Below are positions 54,590 through 63,965 of a stretch of 64,000 nt of DNA, piece after piece (position 1 is the stretch's first letter; the number at the start of each line of letters is the position of its first letter). Under the pieces are notes generated by a model that saw only the letters and a program-made list of their open reading frames with translations, was not told the DNA's origin and ran no database searches. The position numbers were made by a program, and so were the translations under genes. The DNA comes from Thamnidium elegans (Eukaryota; Mucoromycota; Mucoromycetes; Mucorales; Mucoraceae), in assembly GCA_025201345.1 (NCBI GenBank), contig JAIXMG010000014.1, positions 496,001-560,000 on the forward strand, in the 5' to 3' direction.

Positions 54590-54990
54590 TTATTCTGTTA
54601 CTGAAGAATGTACAATTATTCTTGTATTCAACTCTTCTTTTGTCATATAATCATCACCATATTGCCATGGTTGTGGTCTAGTCTTTCTTCGATTCGATTT
54701 TTGCAGTTGTTGTTGTAAAATAGCATCTGCATTTACCATCATGGCGTCCTTGGTACCTCGTCTCTGTAAGCCGAGAATGGATTTACAAGTACGCGTGATG
54801 ACATTAATTGCATTACACTCTTGCGCACACCAGGCAGTAAATTGTGATAACTCTAGCGCTAAATCAATAAAATACGGAGCAATTATTTCCTCCTGCTTAT
54901 GTCGTAGTAATAAAATCCCTTCGTTTCTATTGATACAGTCTGCATCTAATTTATCGTCCACCTGTTTCGTAAACCTCGAGTATTAGTATA

Positions 54991-55026
<36 letters not shown>

Positions 55027-58000
55027 GTGGTTACTTTTTACGGTTACTTACAGATACAAAATTAATAAAGTTCATAAAATGGTGTGTATTGTTCTACATT
55101 ATAATTTTTTTAAGATTAATTGTTTTCTTCATTTCTTGGACTTCTTTTTTTTACCTGAACAAATTCATTTAAACGAACCATCCAGGGTTCCTTTGCATTT
55201 TGCTCAATTGAACTATGACTGGCTAAAGTCATTAAACACTTTGCTATCAAAGTTAATGTACGACACGTTTTTGTATCAGGGTGATCTAAATATTATATTA
55301 GTTCAAATATTGTGCAACCCGCAACTTGATATTCTCACCTTGAACAAGTCCAAATTGTTTAGGAGAAATAATAGCGGGGCAAATCCATCTCAGAAAGATA
55401 AACCCACTTTTTTTTTTAAGAAAAATTAATATAAAAATGGCACTATCATCTTTTTTCATATATTTTACCTAACACAAGTATATCTAGCTACTTGATGATG
55501 TCTATCCAATGTTTCTTTACCTAAATCAAACTTTTTTACAATAGCAGATTGTAAATGTCCAAAAATACGCCGGAGTTCACTATATATGAAGAGAAATCAA
55601 TTAAAGAAATAAAATATACGAAAAAAAACCTATACTTTACATTGGACACTTTGTTTTCGCCTTTTGAATACCTCCCCAAATAGATCTAACAAGATCAAAT
55701 AGTTCAACACAATTGGCAAGCGTATTCTCCATAGTACTATTTGATAATCGTGCTGATTCAACCTACGCTTTTATGTCAAAAACAAGCTATTTTACTCTTT
55801 TTTTTTTCTTTCTTTTTACCTCAATATGTAGGCTAAATTTACATATCTTTTGAATGGTAAATTGAAGTGCCTCTTCCAAGAATTCCTTTCCACTCATTTT
55901 CATATAATTATCGATTACCTTTGTAAAAAAGGAATTCCCTCTAAAAGTGCACATGTTTTTAGTTTCTGTTTCTTCCTAAAAAAGTAACTACTTTTTACCT
56001 AAAAAGAATATTCACATCGTCTAAAAAAAAATGGCTGAGTTAAAAAAAAAGTAGTTACTCGTGTATAACAACAAATCTTACCTGAACTTAATGAAGATAC
56101 TTCATAATCAATCAATGATTTAATCCATGTCAATGTCAATCCCATACCTTCATAGATCCTTAGTAAATTTCTAGCTAATCCTTGTACATCTGATGTTTTT
56201 CTAGCCATATCATATATTATATCATGTCTAAACTCCGTCAATACATCCATGAGTGGTTGATATACATCTAATGAAAACACTTGATGTTCCTCCAACAACA
56301 ATCCAACTCTTAATTGACCTAAAGAGCCAGAACTAGAACCTAAACTTGCCAAAGAAGCAAATCCCCTATTTCTACTTTCCTTTCTCACCTCATACCACTC
56401 CTCACCTATCACATTTGACATCTCCATTTGGCCTACCGGTAAGAACACTGTACCATACACAGTCTCGCGATCATTCTTACTACTTCTTGAGTAAATTGTA
56501 ATTGTTAATCCGTATTGCATCTTACTAATATCACTAAACATAAACTCTTCTCTCCAAAACAAATCTGGCGTCTTTTTTAAAGAACCTGTTAAACCTCGTA
56601 TTTCATTATCAATGACAATATCACAATAGAGTTCGCTATGCACTGAGTCCTTATGACTCACTTGAAATCTCCTTCCTTCTGAAATACGGATTGTTAAACT
56701 ATAGATGGTACGTAATGGAGTAGTAGGTTGCTGACACGCGCGTTTAAGTCGTACAAGCCATGCATCTCGTTGTACTTTACTGCATGTCATTAAATGGTAC
56801 GTCTCCGAAGGTCGAGGTCGAATGACAATACAGTACCTCATATGATCAATTGAATCTGAAAACGGGTAAATATCTTGTGGTGAAAGTGTATCTAGTTGAA
56901 TTGGGCAATGAAAAAAAGCATTCTCATCCTACTTTCAATTATTATTATCAAGTATATATATATATATATATATTACAGTTACCTTTTCGGTTTCCAAGTG
57001 AAGCAAGCCGTTTTCAAACAGTTGTACATGAAGTACACATAGTGTGCCTGTATGATGTGAAGTGCAACTTAATTTGCTTATACATAATTCTATATAGAAA
57101 CATCAGTACTTGTCTTTTTTTCTTTTTATTTTTCTTTTGTTATTAACTTACTATGGATTCGAAACAATCCTGTCATAATTACATTAGATTGATTGATAAT
57201 ACCATTAGATATATTACAGCAATTTATAGGACATTCTGTAACGACTCGAGGATACCCGAGTAATAATTCGCCGTTACTATTTTCTCCGTTATTAGCGAAA
57301 TGTGTTGGTGAATTTCTTACGGCCTATTTAAGGGATTATTAGTTGATTATGCATAATGCAACCTGTATAACCTTACAGTAGTCATATTGGCTTCCATCTT
57401 TTTATAATGTATCAAATCCATCGTGGTAGAAGCTCCAAAGCTAGGCTTTTTACTTAGAAAAGCTCTATTATTAGTATGTGCACTAGAATGACGAGGATGA
57501 GGAATCTATGTGTTTTTTTAAAGAAAAGATTAAAAAAAAAAAATTACATTTTCTTATTTGGTATTACTTACAGAACTCTTTCTGGGAATAGGTTGATTAG
57601 TTTTTTTACTACTTATAGTAGATTGTTGTTGCTGCTGAGGGTTCCAAGATCTCAGTGCTTGTAACCAATTTGAGAAATCAATTGCAGTTTCGGTTTGAAG
57701 ATTTAGACTAACAAAAAATACGAGTTAAAAAAAAGAGAGAGAGAATAAAGAGAATAAAGAGAAATAAAAGAGAAAATCATTTACATGTTACTGGTTCCTG
57801 CAGAACTGATTTGAATTACAAAATCGCGCTTATCCGTTTCTGATGCATGAACAATCGCACACTTTAAATTAGAAACAATAACTGTCGTCTATTAATGTAT
57901 ATATTAGCTCTTCTTCTAGCACAATGGTTACAACTTACTGATGCATCCTTGTATTGTTTAAGATGTCCATCTTCTTTTGATATATAAAAATAATACCTAA

Positions 58001-59882
58001 TACAAAAAAAAAAAGTTTTTTGTTGTAAGTGCCACACACACACACACAAATTAAGTATCTCTTTTTTTTTTTTTTACCTTTCCCATTTGCCTTCTTTATT
58101 ATGATTAGCATCCTTGTTACTATTAATTCCATTTGTACAATTACTATTGACTCCAGCTGACTTTTTCTTTGTTAACAGGTAGCCTTTAGCACTCATTTGT
58201 GATCCAGTCAACGAAAGTGGATTTGTAGTCGATAATAAGGAATCTAAACTATTATACCTTTGCTACAAAAAAAAAAAAAAAAAAAAAAAAAAGTCAAAAA
58301 CAGTTGGCTCAAAGTAGTTATTTTTACATACTACCACTCTTGGCTTGTTTAAAAAAGTAAATGGTATAAGTGAGGTAGGTGAAGAAGGTCTTGACCTTAT
58401 CATAAAGTTTTCATTGGGCGGCTTTAACGAGTTCTTTAAGCAACTATAATAAGAAGCTAATTTTTCTTGGATATAATAAGACAAACGTTCATTATTTAAC
58501 TACATAAGAGGGTTAATAACGTCAATTTTAAAATAATAGTTGATATTTCAATATTTACTTCATTATAGTCTTCAAATGAAGAACGTGGAAATGGCGAACT
58601 AGACCGTTCTTCAGTACTACTGTGGCTACTACTGGCACTACTACTGCTGGTGGACTTTTTCGAATTAACATCGTATACAAAATCAGTTGAAATCAATACT
58701 AGTTCTTCAAGTGTCTTTAAATTACGATGTTTATCCGATTGTAACCCTTCAAATAATGGTGTCAACTACCAAAAAGAGAAAAATGAGGGTATAAACATAA
58801 GGGAAATTTTATGTGGGGGTTTTTTTTTCTTTTTTACCTTGTCATTAACTAGCGTTCGCGTGGCTCTAATTAGATTATTGAGGGCATAAATGTACTCCAA
58901 CAGAACTTTGCATAGTGATCTTTTGGCTACATAGAGACCAGTACTGATTTCCTATTATTTGTGAGTGTTAGTTCAATTTATAACCTGTGCGGTTTTGACT
59001 AAACATACGTCTAATGTCTTGCTATTGGCTTGTGAAGATTTTAATTTTTGTGTGGCACAGTAGTTGTTTGATAATTGAACTTGCTTTGCTCTACAGGCAT
59101 TAATATTGGTTTCAAAGTGCTATAAAAATGGAAGTTTAGTGTCTTAAATAGTTTTATATCGGTCTTTTTTTGTACCGTTAATGTTTCCTTGATTTTTGAT
59201 CCATGATCACGTAAATAAGCTATATATTAACCATTAGAATAGAGTTTTTTTTAATTATTACTGTATACTTGCGTAGAATAGATCGAATATCTTGATTGTC
59301 CCATACTTCCTCATCAATCGATTTGTTGTCACTAGGCCAGTTTAAGTTATTACACTCTTCCGCTGTATAAAAAGGCTCGTTGAGTACAAGCTTTGTTTGG
59401 TCGTAGAGTAATGCAATGGATTTACTATAGGCTATCTCTAATTGTCTGCATTGTTCGATTTTTTCCAGCCAGGTCAAGTAATGATATAACCAGGTCTCTA
59501 AACAAGATAAGTATTCGTGAAATACTGGTGAATCAATCCAAATATCCTCGTACAAAATGTCTGAAGATAGATCCAACATTGGTATATCGGGGTGTAATAA
59601 ATTATTTACTTGGTTTGATACCATGGTCTTTCGACCTGGTATAGCAATACTTGTTTCATCATCGCCACTACTGCTACTGCTACTACTGGCTGTATGTATG
59701 CTACAGTTACTAGTAGTATCATCTTCTTCTTCACAAACTACTTGATTGGAAGTTATCCATGATTGTTGAATAGATGATAAACTAAAAGAAGACCTTGGTA
59801 GTCTTGCTGACATATCATCATCGTTATCATCATCATCATCTATATGAATTAAAGGTACACTACTTGAACGTGATTGATCCAT
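54590..59882 (-). CDS. Ras GTPase-activating protein with BAR-like, two PH, C2 and RasGAP domains, about 1,310 aa
   Basis: About 22 exons on the minus strand, from the start codon at 59882 to the stop at 54590. Exon 1 (59273-59882) is acidic, Ser-rich, then helical (ETWLYHYLTWLEKIEQCRQLE); helical exons to about 58500 resemble a BAR fold. PH 1 spans GYLLTKKK to FSNWLQALRSW; PH 2 spans STLCVLHVQLF to RDAWLVRLKRA. A C2-like part follows (EEFMFSDIS, VYGTVFLPVGQME). The GAP domain has the arginine-finger loop NILFRGNSFFTK, the FLRWICPAIISPKQF block, and HPDTKTCRTLTLIAK. Such proteins speed GTP hydrolysis on Ras at membranes; PH-C2-GAP recalls the DAB2IP/SynGAP type and yeast Bud2. The likely substrate is the Ras encoded at 63.1-64.0 kb, by proximity only. 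Intron 1 seems to be GC-AG and exon 15 is 22 nt. Confidence 0.88.
54985..55026. repeat. Long T homopolymer inside a RasGAP intron
   Basis: A run of more than 30 T at about 54991-55024 lies in the last intron of the minus-strand RasGAP gene, where it reads as poly-A. Confidence 0.8.
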
Positions 59883-60291
59883 AATATATGTATATATTTT
59901 TAAAGAAAAAAAAAAGAAAAGAAAGAAGAAGAATACACTTCTATATAAAAAAGGGGTCTTTGATTAACAACAGTGTAAATCTAACCCCTATTTTTTTTGT
60001 TGTTGTTGTTTTTTTTATATTTATATATTTATTTACTCCTCATCGATAATAATTCTATTACCAACTATTTCTCTCCTTTTCTTCTTCTTTACACTTGTGT
60101 ACTCTCACATACTGACTCTTTTAGTAGTTATATACCCATATATATATATATATATCCATTCATTTTTTATATCATATATATTACTGCTATTTTTTGTTCT
60201 CTTTTTTTTCTTTTTTTTTGTCTTCAAAAAAAAAAAGTACCTATAACTCAAAAAAAAGAGAGAGAGTGTGTGTGTGTGTGTGTGTGTATAA
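59883..60291. promoter_or_regulatory. Shared divergent upstream region of RasGAP and RasGEF
   Basis: The two start codons lie 409 bp apart and point away from each other, so both promoters must lie here or within the genes. The region has poly-T/poly-A blocks, a TATATATATATA run (about 60140-60153), and near the RasGEF start an AG-then-GT dinucleotide stretch (60257-60288) that would lie in the RasGEF leader. Confidence 0.6.
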
Positions 60292-62994
60292 ATGCTGTCT
60301 ACTGAATTAAACATGCAAAACTTAATGCATGAAGCTTCACATTGTTACAACCTTGGTAGATTCAAGGTAACAAAAAAAAAAGCGTATATACATATAAAAA
60401 AAAAAAAAAGCAAAAATAACCGTTTTCCACAGGTTTCGTTTGATTTATATATTGAAGCATTATTATCTGCAGTTAAAGAATTTCAACGGTTACAATTTAT
60501 AGATCAAAGCATGTATTATTGTTAAAAAAAAAAAAAAAGAGGTCTAACAGGTATATATATAATAGATGTTCAAGTCAATGATTTATCACCAGTATTTTTT
60601 TTGGCACATACGTGTCTAAACCATGCAAAAAAAATTTCTTCAAACAAAAAAGCACCAACCGTACCACCAAAACCGGCTTGTTTATCTTCACCTCCACCGT
60701 TACCCATTAGGCCTTTTTTGGACACTGAGATGATACGAACAAGATCAGATTTTGAAAAAAGTCCTTGTACCATAGATTATTCTTCAGATGAAGATGAAAA
60801 ATACAATGTAAATAATAATAAAAAGGGTAAACTAGAAATAATCACTTTATATTTACATGTATATATATTTACTAAAGTATATATAAATAATAGAAAAAGG
60901 TTTAAAGATTGTAACAAAACGTAATAAATTACCTCGTAGATCTTCTACTTCAAATATATCTTGTTCTGCTCCCTCTTCTCCTTCTGTTGTTTCAAACCCT
61001 TTAAATGCTGTAAAATCTTTCTTGTCCTTACCTGGCTCCATTGCTTCCCAAGCAGCTCCAGATAATGATGACCTATTCCTATTAACAAATGCAACCATTG
61101 ACCCACACCAACTTATTACTGCACAAACAAGTCATAGCGATAATACGTTACAATCTGTTACAAACAATAATTATTTACCAATGATACCACAAGCCCCACT
61201 CGTTACTGTATATAAATCTTTACAACAAAAACTGCAAGAATTGAAAAAGACAGATGAGGATTTCAATAATATACAATCTTTATTAAACAGAGTACGTAAT
61301 ATTCATATGTCTGCTACCACTGTACCTACCATCCTCCAGTTTCAACCGGTCTTGATTGCCTATCAACTCACTTTAATGGATTCAACCATCTTTCGAAATA
61401 TACCAATGGATGCTATCTTATCTCATTCGCCAAAGACTCCTCACCCTGCCATTGTTGCTTCCACAGACTTTTTTAATTACTTGACTCGATTGATTGAGCA
61501 CGCTATCCTTTTACAACAGGATGCATCTGGACGTGCACAACATATCAATCACTGGATCAAAGTTGCTGGCAAATGCCACGAGTTAAAAAACTATCAAACG
61601 TTAAAAGCTGTCGTATCTGCATTAGGTACTCCTCCTATTAAAAGACTTAAAAAATCATGGTCCTTTGTTCCTAAAAAGGGTATTCACTTACTAGAGGATT
61701 TAAGTGAATTGATGTCTGAAGCATCCAATTATGGTAAATACCGAACGAGATTAGGTTTATCACAAGATGAAATTGAACAAGATGTTACATTGACTAGAAA
61801 ACCAAGTATGAGAAAGAATTCGTTTAATGAACCTACTGTACCATTTTTAGGTATATTTATTCATGATATGACTTATTTGGTGGCGGCGCTATCAAAAAAG
61901 AAAAATCAACATAACTCACAATGGAAAACCAGTGGAAGTAAACAATCGATTGAAAATATGCAACAGGATGTAAGAGTATCCGAATTACTTGCACTATTTA
62001 AAAACTTGCAAAGAAGTCCTCCTTATTCTCCTCATTTATCCGCTGTATGTGTTAAAGATCTCAATAAAAATAGAAAGCGAAAGTTGTCTCATGCGCTTAC
62101 TCGCTCTTCTGCTATCAAAAAGACGCCACCTTATTTTTCTAATCAATATGATGATGAAACAGGTGGTGAACTTAGCACTGAAATGCAGCAATGTCTTGTG
62201 ACTCAATATCTGGTAAAGTATCATTTTAATTTCTATGTATTTTTTTTTAATACTTTTTGATTTAGTTGACTAGGTCATGGGTAAGTGAAAAGACAGTAGA
62301 TGAATTAAGTCTAGTTAGAGAACCAACAAAGACTGCAAGAAGTTATTCAGTTACAGATTCTTTAGCTTCTCCCATCACTAGTGCTTTACCTCCTATCACA
62401 TCTTCTGTTAGTTTAACAACAACAACTAGAAGTAGTTCAGGAAGTATGACCAGTAGTAGTTCCAATAGTAGGCCGTTGAGTCTAGAAGATGAACTAGATC
62501 AAGAAGATATCGATAGGAAATCTTCTACTGCAGGATTTTGGTTATTTGGTAGAAAGACGAACGATTCAAATTGTTTAAAACCTTGCGGATCAAATGAATC
62601 ATTTGGTACAATGCAAAGATCTCCTCGACACTTTTCTTTTGAAGAAATAAGTAGTAATAGTATGGTAAAAAGTAGTTCATTCAAGCAAGGTACTATTACT
62701 ATGCAACGAGAAGGATCTCAAAATTCATTATCGATATTTCGTAAGGATTTTTGGAAAGGTGGAACAACGAGCAATCGAAATCCTTTACTGAATTTCAATA
62801 GTGATCCTTCCTTACTTTCTTCAACTGGTATTCAACGTAAAGGGTCATCTAGTTCACTTATACATCCTTCACCTTCTTCGTCTACTGATACTAGCAATTT
62901 TCATCAAAAGAAGCTGCTTGTCGCTTCTCTACATCCTTTAGATAGTACGTACACGCCACTTTCGGAAATATCCAGTTTTAACTGGGACCAATAA
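60292..62994 (+). CDS. Ras guanine-nucleotide exchange factor (CDC25-type RasGEF) with MIT-like N-terminus, 821 aa
   Basis: Five exons: 60292-60366, 60433-60520, 60566-60826, 60900-62212 and 62266-62994. The first ~60 residues (LMHEASHCYNLGRFK, then FDLYIEALLSAVKEF) resemble a MIT three-helix domain, which binds ESCRT-III tails. A Ser/Pro-rich linker follows. The RasGEF catalytic domain spans about residues 250-570: LIAYQLTLMDSTIFRNI, HINHWIKVAGKCHELKNYQT, ALGTPPIKRLKKSW, and PFLGIFIHDMTYL near the end, all typical of CDC25-homology domains that expel GDP from Ras. The C-terminal ~240 residues are disordered and Ser-rich. The donor of exon 2 (T|GTTAAA) is weak, so that junction is tentative. 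I see no separate REM domain, though 61200-61310 is helical. Confidence 0.88.
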
Positions 62995-63129
62995 ATTATT
63001 TTAATTTAGAAGAGAGAAAAAAAAAGGAGGAGGAGGGTAGAAGGAGGAAGAGGAGGTGTGGGATATACAAATATTTATAAAAAAAATAAAAATAAAAAGT
63101 GGGTTTTGAGTAAGTGTGTGTGTGTGTGT

Positions 63130-63965
63130 TTACATTAATATACAACATTTTGATTCGGTTTTCTCTTGAGGAGCAATAGGAGCAACACTTTTACGAACTT
63201 CTTGTACCTTGTTATACTTTCTAATATCTCTCACAACAGCATGAAATGCTTCATCTACATTAATACGTTCTTTAGCGGATGATTCTACAAACTCACAGCC
63301 ATAATAATCTGCTAATTCTTTTCCTTCTTGGCGGGTTACTTGTCTGTCCGTGTCCAAATCACATTTATTGGCAATTAATACCATAGGAAATCTATCTCGG
63401 TCTTTAACTCTGCAAATTTGTTGGTGGAATGTTTCGATTTCTTCAAATGACATACGAGACGTGATAGAATAAACTAGTAAAAACCCTTCACCATTCCTCA
63501 TATATTGTTCTCTCATAGCACTATTATATATTATATGTACATTAGAAATAATAATAAAAAAGAGGGGAGGGATTAAAGGGATAAAAATATAGAATTTTAC
63601 CTGTATTCTTCTTGTCCTGCTGTATCTAATACGTCAAGTAAAGCAGTTTCTTCGTCAATAACACATTGTTTTCTATAAGAGTCTAGTCGTAAAAAATATA
63701 TATATTTAAATAAATTATTTTATACTGTATTTTTTTTTCTTTCTTAGTTTACCTTCTATAGTTGGGTCGTATTCATCAACAAAGTGAGATTGAATAAACT
63801 GAATGGTTAAAGCAGATTTACCAACACCTAATAAATAATTTTTAAGGTTTTTTTTTTTAAAAAAAAGGGGGGGGGGGTTTACACCTTCTTTATTTATTTA
63901 CCACCACCACCAACCATAACTAGTTTATATTCACGAACAATCCAAGAAGCAGATTTATTCGACAT
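63130..63965 (-). CDS. Ras GTPase, 203 aa
   Basis: Four exons on the minus strand: 63902-63965, 63753-63827, 63601-63682 and 63130-63520. The product has all Ras motifs: P-loop GGGGVGKS, switch I YDPTIEDSY, switch [23 protein letters not shown] for guanine specificity, and ESSAK. The GGGG form of the P-loop is also seen in yeast Ras, so the glycines are normal. The C-terminus ends SKCCILM, a CaaX box CILM for prenylation with a neighbouring Cys that may be palmitoylated, so it acts at membranes. It is a molecular switch upstream of cAMP or MAPK signalling in fungi. The gene converges with RasGEF, 135 bp between the stop codons. Intron 1 holds a T11-A8-G11 tract (63848-63877). Confidence 0.95.

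Follow-up and report, generated by a model that had tools for sequence, protein, structure and literature searches.

Why should a Ras GTPase gene lie directly beside genes for a putative activator and a putative inactivator of Ras in a eukaryotic genome? This question is raised by a block of about 9.4 kb in the fungus Thamnidium elegans (Mucorales), where the genes for a RasGAP (GTPase-activating protein), a RasGEF (guanine nucleotide exchange factor) and a Ras GTPase stand side by side. The block occupies positions 54590-63965 of the window, i.e. the whole stretch of 64,000 nucleotides that was analyzed (C6:496001-560000 in an assembly of 34.1 Mb and 64 contigs). A first-pass annotation had described three adjacent genes (minus, plus, minus) with complete signature motifs, a 409-bp divergent region between GAP and GEF and the convergence of GEF and Ras. 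On re-examination, the adjacency, strands and coordinates as well as the 409-bp region (59883-60291) were found to be exact, the convergence was upheld, and the motifs are intact in the spliced models, with Pfam scores above the curated cut-offs.

With a probability of roughly 0.6, we consider that the block was inherited as a gene cluster serving a single Ras switch, in which an old GAP-GEF pair was later joined by a Ras paralog (termed RasL in the following) and which was retained for joint function. More tentative, and at slightly less than even odds, is the narrower view that a dedicated Ras paralog arose beside the older pair and that the three have since co-evolved into a private module, making up a conserved eukaryotic cluster of a whole switch.

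Pairwise linkage of the genes in other Mucorales

The comparison with other Mucorales was based on the matches listed, and two proteins of one species were taken to be encoded on the same contig when they showed equal-sized longest contigs. The first round comprised 31 orthologous and 29 paralogous GEF sequences (of the best 120), 11 RasL and 41 other Ras sequences (of the best 120) and 11 of 50 listed GAP sequences; 24 Ras and 11 GEF sequences were added in a second round. Metagenome sequences and those from other fungi are excluded from the counts.

The GEF ortholog and the GAP share a contig in five of eight same-species pairs (Parasitella, 69 kb; Mucor velutinosus, 757 kb; Benjaminiella, 950 kb; Apophysomyces, 57 kb; Spinellus, 491 kb), and the GEF ortholog and RasL do so in six of seven (Helicostylum, 2.24 Mb; Pilaira, 412 kb; M. 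ambiguus, 82 kb; Parasitella, 167 kb; Cokeromyces, 1.05 Mb; Choanephora, 191 kb). Control pairs of the GEF ortholog with any other Ras never shared a contig (0/34 and 0/21 pairs, 0/55 in total), nor did paralogous GEFs with the GAP (0/9 and 0/2). For random positions in an assumed 30-Mb genome, the expected contig sharing per case is 0.2 to 7%, to be read with the reservation that the species are related and the cases not independent. The misses concern two Parasitella cross-pairs, Rhizopus stolonifer and R. microsporus; they probably compare different assemblies, with two contig sets in Parasitella and fragments in Rhizopus.

By its pairwise linkage in other species the block behaves as a conserved cluster; the cluster is real and conserved at least pairwise, and a function of its linkage is plausible. 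The idea of a co-inherited module can thus be retained for the pairwise linkages, which recur in other Mucorales, whereas T. elegans alone shows the complete trio on a single contig among the matches listed. Likewise, the possibility that the gene order is unique to this assembly does not hold for parts of the linkage, which are found in other species.

Several observations weigh against an inherited cluster with a joint function. Beyond T. elegans, the sole evidence of adjacency are the consecutive locus tags DFQ30_002005 (GAP) and DFQ30_002006 (GEF) in Apophysomyces, which concern GAP and GEF only, and the annotated GAP is a fragment of 778 amino acids; linkage in other species otherwise means a shared contig and not adjacency. 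The one listed pair of RasL and GAP does not share a contig (0/1), as the two halves of the linkage lie on two Parasitella contigs, which probably stem from two assemblies. Paralogous GEFs share a contig with RasL in 1 of 12 pairs (Backusella, 486 kb) and with other Ras in 4 of 34 (all on contigs of at least 3 Mb), then in 0 of 15 in the second round. Backusella has two RasL sequences and no GEF ortholog among the matches listed. Finally, RalGPS1 comes nearest to the GEF in sequence and the GAP is related to BUD2/CLA2, so that the substrate may be other than Ras.

Probability of a chance arrangement

The genome contains at least 20 RasGEF and at least 10 RasGAP loci (lower bounds, merged from 25 and 13 exon matches). 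When 20 GEF, 10 GAP and 3 Ras genes were placed at random in 34.1 Mb, a triple inside 9.4 kb arose in 0.00015 of the simulations, and in 0.0006 when 12 Ras-subfamily genes were used instead; many other gene sets that would have been noticeable are uncounted in these figures. A GEF-GAP pair alone fell inside 9.4 kb somewhere in 0.10 of the simulations. The second-closest RasGEF-RasGAP pair of the actual genome is separated by 129 kb. A loose group of Ras3, a RasGAP and a RasGEF is located at C5:135-265 kb, with a mutual spacing of about 65 kb.

These numbers bear on the view that the genes are passive neighbors, brought together by chance and kept so by slow gene-order change, with a linkage that has no function. 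The inertia of gene order in Mucorales could indeed account for the retention, and closeness of two of the three genes is not rare, as the frequency of GEF-GAP pairs illustrates. However, the full triple was reached in no more than 0.00015 to 0.0006 of the simulations, and the linkage recurs between fungi with GEF identities of 51-54% in the aligned portion (Apophysomyces, Parasitella). In addition, the newly added Ras is a paralog from the very family that these regulators serve. We regard passive adjacency as unlikely.

Probable origin of the cluster

The GEF orthologs form a single clade (support 100/100 in one tree and 100 in another). The same is true for RasL, with 12 sequences and a support of 100/98 in the first tree and 11 sequences and a support of 99 in the second; the 12 include all sequences labeled as linked, among them Backusella, and four unlabeled ones. 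Backusella was dropped as a linked case, because the GEF on its shared contig is a paralog according to the tree. Ras1 (C56) and Ras3 (C5) of T. elegans fall outside the RasL clade. Three intron positions, compared by eye, are common to RasL, Ras1 and Ras3, the latter having one extra, and since the Ras introns are retained, RasL would have been duplicated at the DNA level. Identity between species amounts to 75-90% for RasL versus 95-99.5% for Ras1 in four of four species pairs; judged by these sequences, RasL is the faster evolving of the two.

In Apophysomyces and Spinellus, the GAP-GEF contig is without any of the listed Ras sequences. RasL sequences occur, among the matches listed, in Mucor-like fungi, Pilaira, Cokeromyces, Choanephora-like fungi, Gilbertella and Backusella only, although absence in other families is a soft result. 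Since GAP-GEF sharing reaches Apophysomyces and Spinellus while RasL is restricted in this way, the GAP-GEF pair is probably older than its linkage to RasL. Given the GAP-GEF contigs without a listed Ras in these two fungi, the pair probably also serves, or originally served, another GTPase. In the order of events that we favor, the divergent pair would have been present early in Mucorales, the RasL paralog would have been placed beside the GEF later in a subgroup of them, and the cluster may have been retained because its products cooperate.

Two sequences labeled Rhizopus stolonifer (P0016 and P0182) cluster with Choanephora and Gilbertella, apart from other Rhizopus, and this assembly may be misidentified.

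Gene models and protein domains

The features of the block are compiled in Table 1. All gene models are predictions from DNA with hand-chosen exon joints, which are consistent with orthologs, e.g. P0125 and P0006, and the spliced models of Ras, GEF and GAP each contain a single terminal stop. Two introns are probably of the GC-AG type. This is the best fit for intron 1 of the GAP gene (59272-59220), where an in-phase GT donor was not found, and for intron 2 of the GEF gene (60509-60565), where the alternative is an intron of 30 bases. P0125, the GAP ortholog of Mucor velutinosus, bears the record name 'Invasin CotH7' despite its C2 and RasGAP domains, which is probably a mislabel.

Table 1 Features of the Ras-GEF-GAP block (window positions)
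Feature	Position	Strand	Details
RasGAP gene	54590..59882	-	21 exons, 1298 amino acids; (BAR-like helices)-PH-(PH)-C2-RasGAP; exon models and phases, Pfam
Most of RasGAP domain (exons)	55155..56100	-	holds arginine finger LFRGNS (residue 991) and FLRWICPAI
C2 domain of GAP	56389..56700	-	Pfam C2 29.6 bits, exon translation
GAP/GEF divergent intergenic region	59883..60291		409 bp; putative shared promoter, from position alone
RasGEF gene	60292..62994	+	5 exons, 817 amino acids; exon model, Pfam RasGEF 146.9 bits
RasGEF (CDC25) catalytic domain	61355..61903	+	Pfam match, residues 157-339 of exon translation
GEF/Ras convergent gap	62995..63129		135 bp
Ras GTPase gene, RasL type	63130..63965	-	4 exons, 203 amino acids, CaaX end CCILM; Pfam, tree position

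An assembly error or wrong gene calls could mimic a cluster, and a near-identical 14.3-kb tandem array within the same window is the kind of context in which this has to be considered. Nevertheless, none of the three models is disrupted, and assemblies of other species show the pairwise linkages as well, which makes an artifact highly improbable. Past the window edge adjoining Ras, there is an open reading frame that by eye resembles an acyl-CoA thioesterase (L047, C6:560065-560466).

The Pfam search of the full proteins, for which initial versions of the models were used, gave matches above the curated cut-offs throughout (Ras 205 bits, RasGEF 146.9, RasGAP 106.6, PH 31.7 and C2 27.3). The GTPase carries the motifs GGGGVGKS, YDPTIEDSY, DTAGQ, NKCD and SAK and ends in CCILM; by its G motifs, the glutamine after DTAG and the CaaX end it belongs to the Ras subfamily, and its best solved structural matches are R-Ras2 and Ras. 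In the GAP, the arginine finger DDVNILFRGNS aligns to LFRATT of p120GAP and FLRWICPAI to FLRLICPAI, which together with the domain itself places the protein among the RasGAPs of the p120GAP/SynGAP class. The CDC25 catalytic domain identifies the GEF as a CDC25-type RasGEF. The core folds of the GAP and GEF orthologs match solved Ras regulators.

Evidence for the BAR-like part and the second PH domain of the GAP comes solely from relatives and from a modeled ortholog; BAR-PH entries of APPL and ACAP1 are among the Foldseek matches, with a poor overall superposition. Many CDC25-type RasGEFs carry a REM (RasGEF_N) domain and some do not. Such a domain was matched in none of 34 members of the GEF family at an E-value of 0.5, and the structural matches span only 360-705. 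A scan for relatives of the GEF in viral contigs and in bacterial and archaeal genome contigs found none.

Predicted substrate and comparison with known systems

GAP and GEF are likely to act on RasL, their predicted substrate. The GEF would load GTP onto RasL and the GAP would clear it by means of its arginine finger. RasL, through its presumed lipid anchor, and the GAP, through its domains predicted to bind lipids, may be recruited to one membrane, and the 409-bp region, as a putative shared promoter, may match the levels of GAP and GEF.

The main alternative substrate of both regulators is Rap1, encoded by a Rap-type gene on C2. Here, GAP and GEF would regulate Rap1/Rsr1 like Bud2 and Bud5 in yeast, and the neighboring Ras would be incidental. 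The yeast module of Rsr1/Bud1, Bud5 (GEF) and Bud2 (GAP) resembles the block in combining a Ras-family GTPase with a GEF of the CDC25 type and a RasGAP. Some distant relatives of the window GAP bear the name BUD2/CLA2, and the known yeast partner of BUD2/CLA2 is Rsr1. In contrast to Rsr1, the window GTPase is of the Ras type, with R-Ras2 and Ras as best matches, and does not classify as Rap/Rsr1 type. We know of no physical clustering of the yeast Rsr1, Bud5 and Bud2 genes. Altogether, a Rap1-directed pair with an incidental Ras neighbor appears rather improbable to us, and RasL remains the favored substrate.

The bacterial MglA-MglB system also has a small GTPase gene near the gene of its regulator. 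However, the MglA and MglB genes are arranged as an operon and MglB is unrelated to RasGAP, whereas the genes of the window are divergent and convergent and include a GEF. The GAP shares the C2-RasGAP core, the arginine finger and the FLR motif with p120RasGAP and SynGAP, its best solved matches, but the model of the GAP ortholog has BAR-like helices and a second PH domain in front; SH2 or SH3 domains were not found in the window proteins by the Pfam search. The GEF shares its CDC25 catalytic domain with RalGPS1, RasGRF1 and Cdc25 and differs from them by an N-terminal three-helix bundle in the model of the ortholog. Another RasGAP from Mucorales is MadC of Phycomyces, which is reported to bind Ras in two-hybrid tests and is regarded by its authors as a homolog of IRA1/NF1 (PMC5359613).

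No published description of such a Ras-GEF-GAP cluster was found in the literature searched, with most subscription journals outside its scope. To our knowledge, the pairing of GEFs and GAPs to Ras proteins is mostly unclear beyond a few model organisms. A conserved cluster, if true, would supply one matched GEF-GAP-Ras set among the many loci of T. elegans and make this pairing directly testable. It would also represent a stepwise gathering of signaling regulators beside their GTPase in a eukaryote; stepwise gathering of genes is known for metabolic gene clusters.

Further observations

A Ras-like GTPase gene is present in seven near-identical copies (L055-L061), located at C25:2124 and C36:182180, three times on C50 and twice on C58. 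The copies either occupy the end of a contig or lie on contigs only 12 and 19 kb long, which suggests a subtelomeric or collapsed repeat. The tandem array of the window extends from 14434 to 48070; through repetition of its 14.3-kb unit it contains three copies, near-identical by eye, of a gene for a large secreted or membrane protein. Its spacers hold open reading frames that resemble pieces of LINE (long interspersed nuclear element) retrotransposons.
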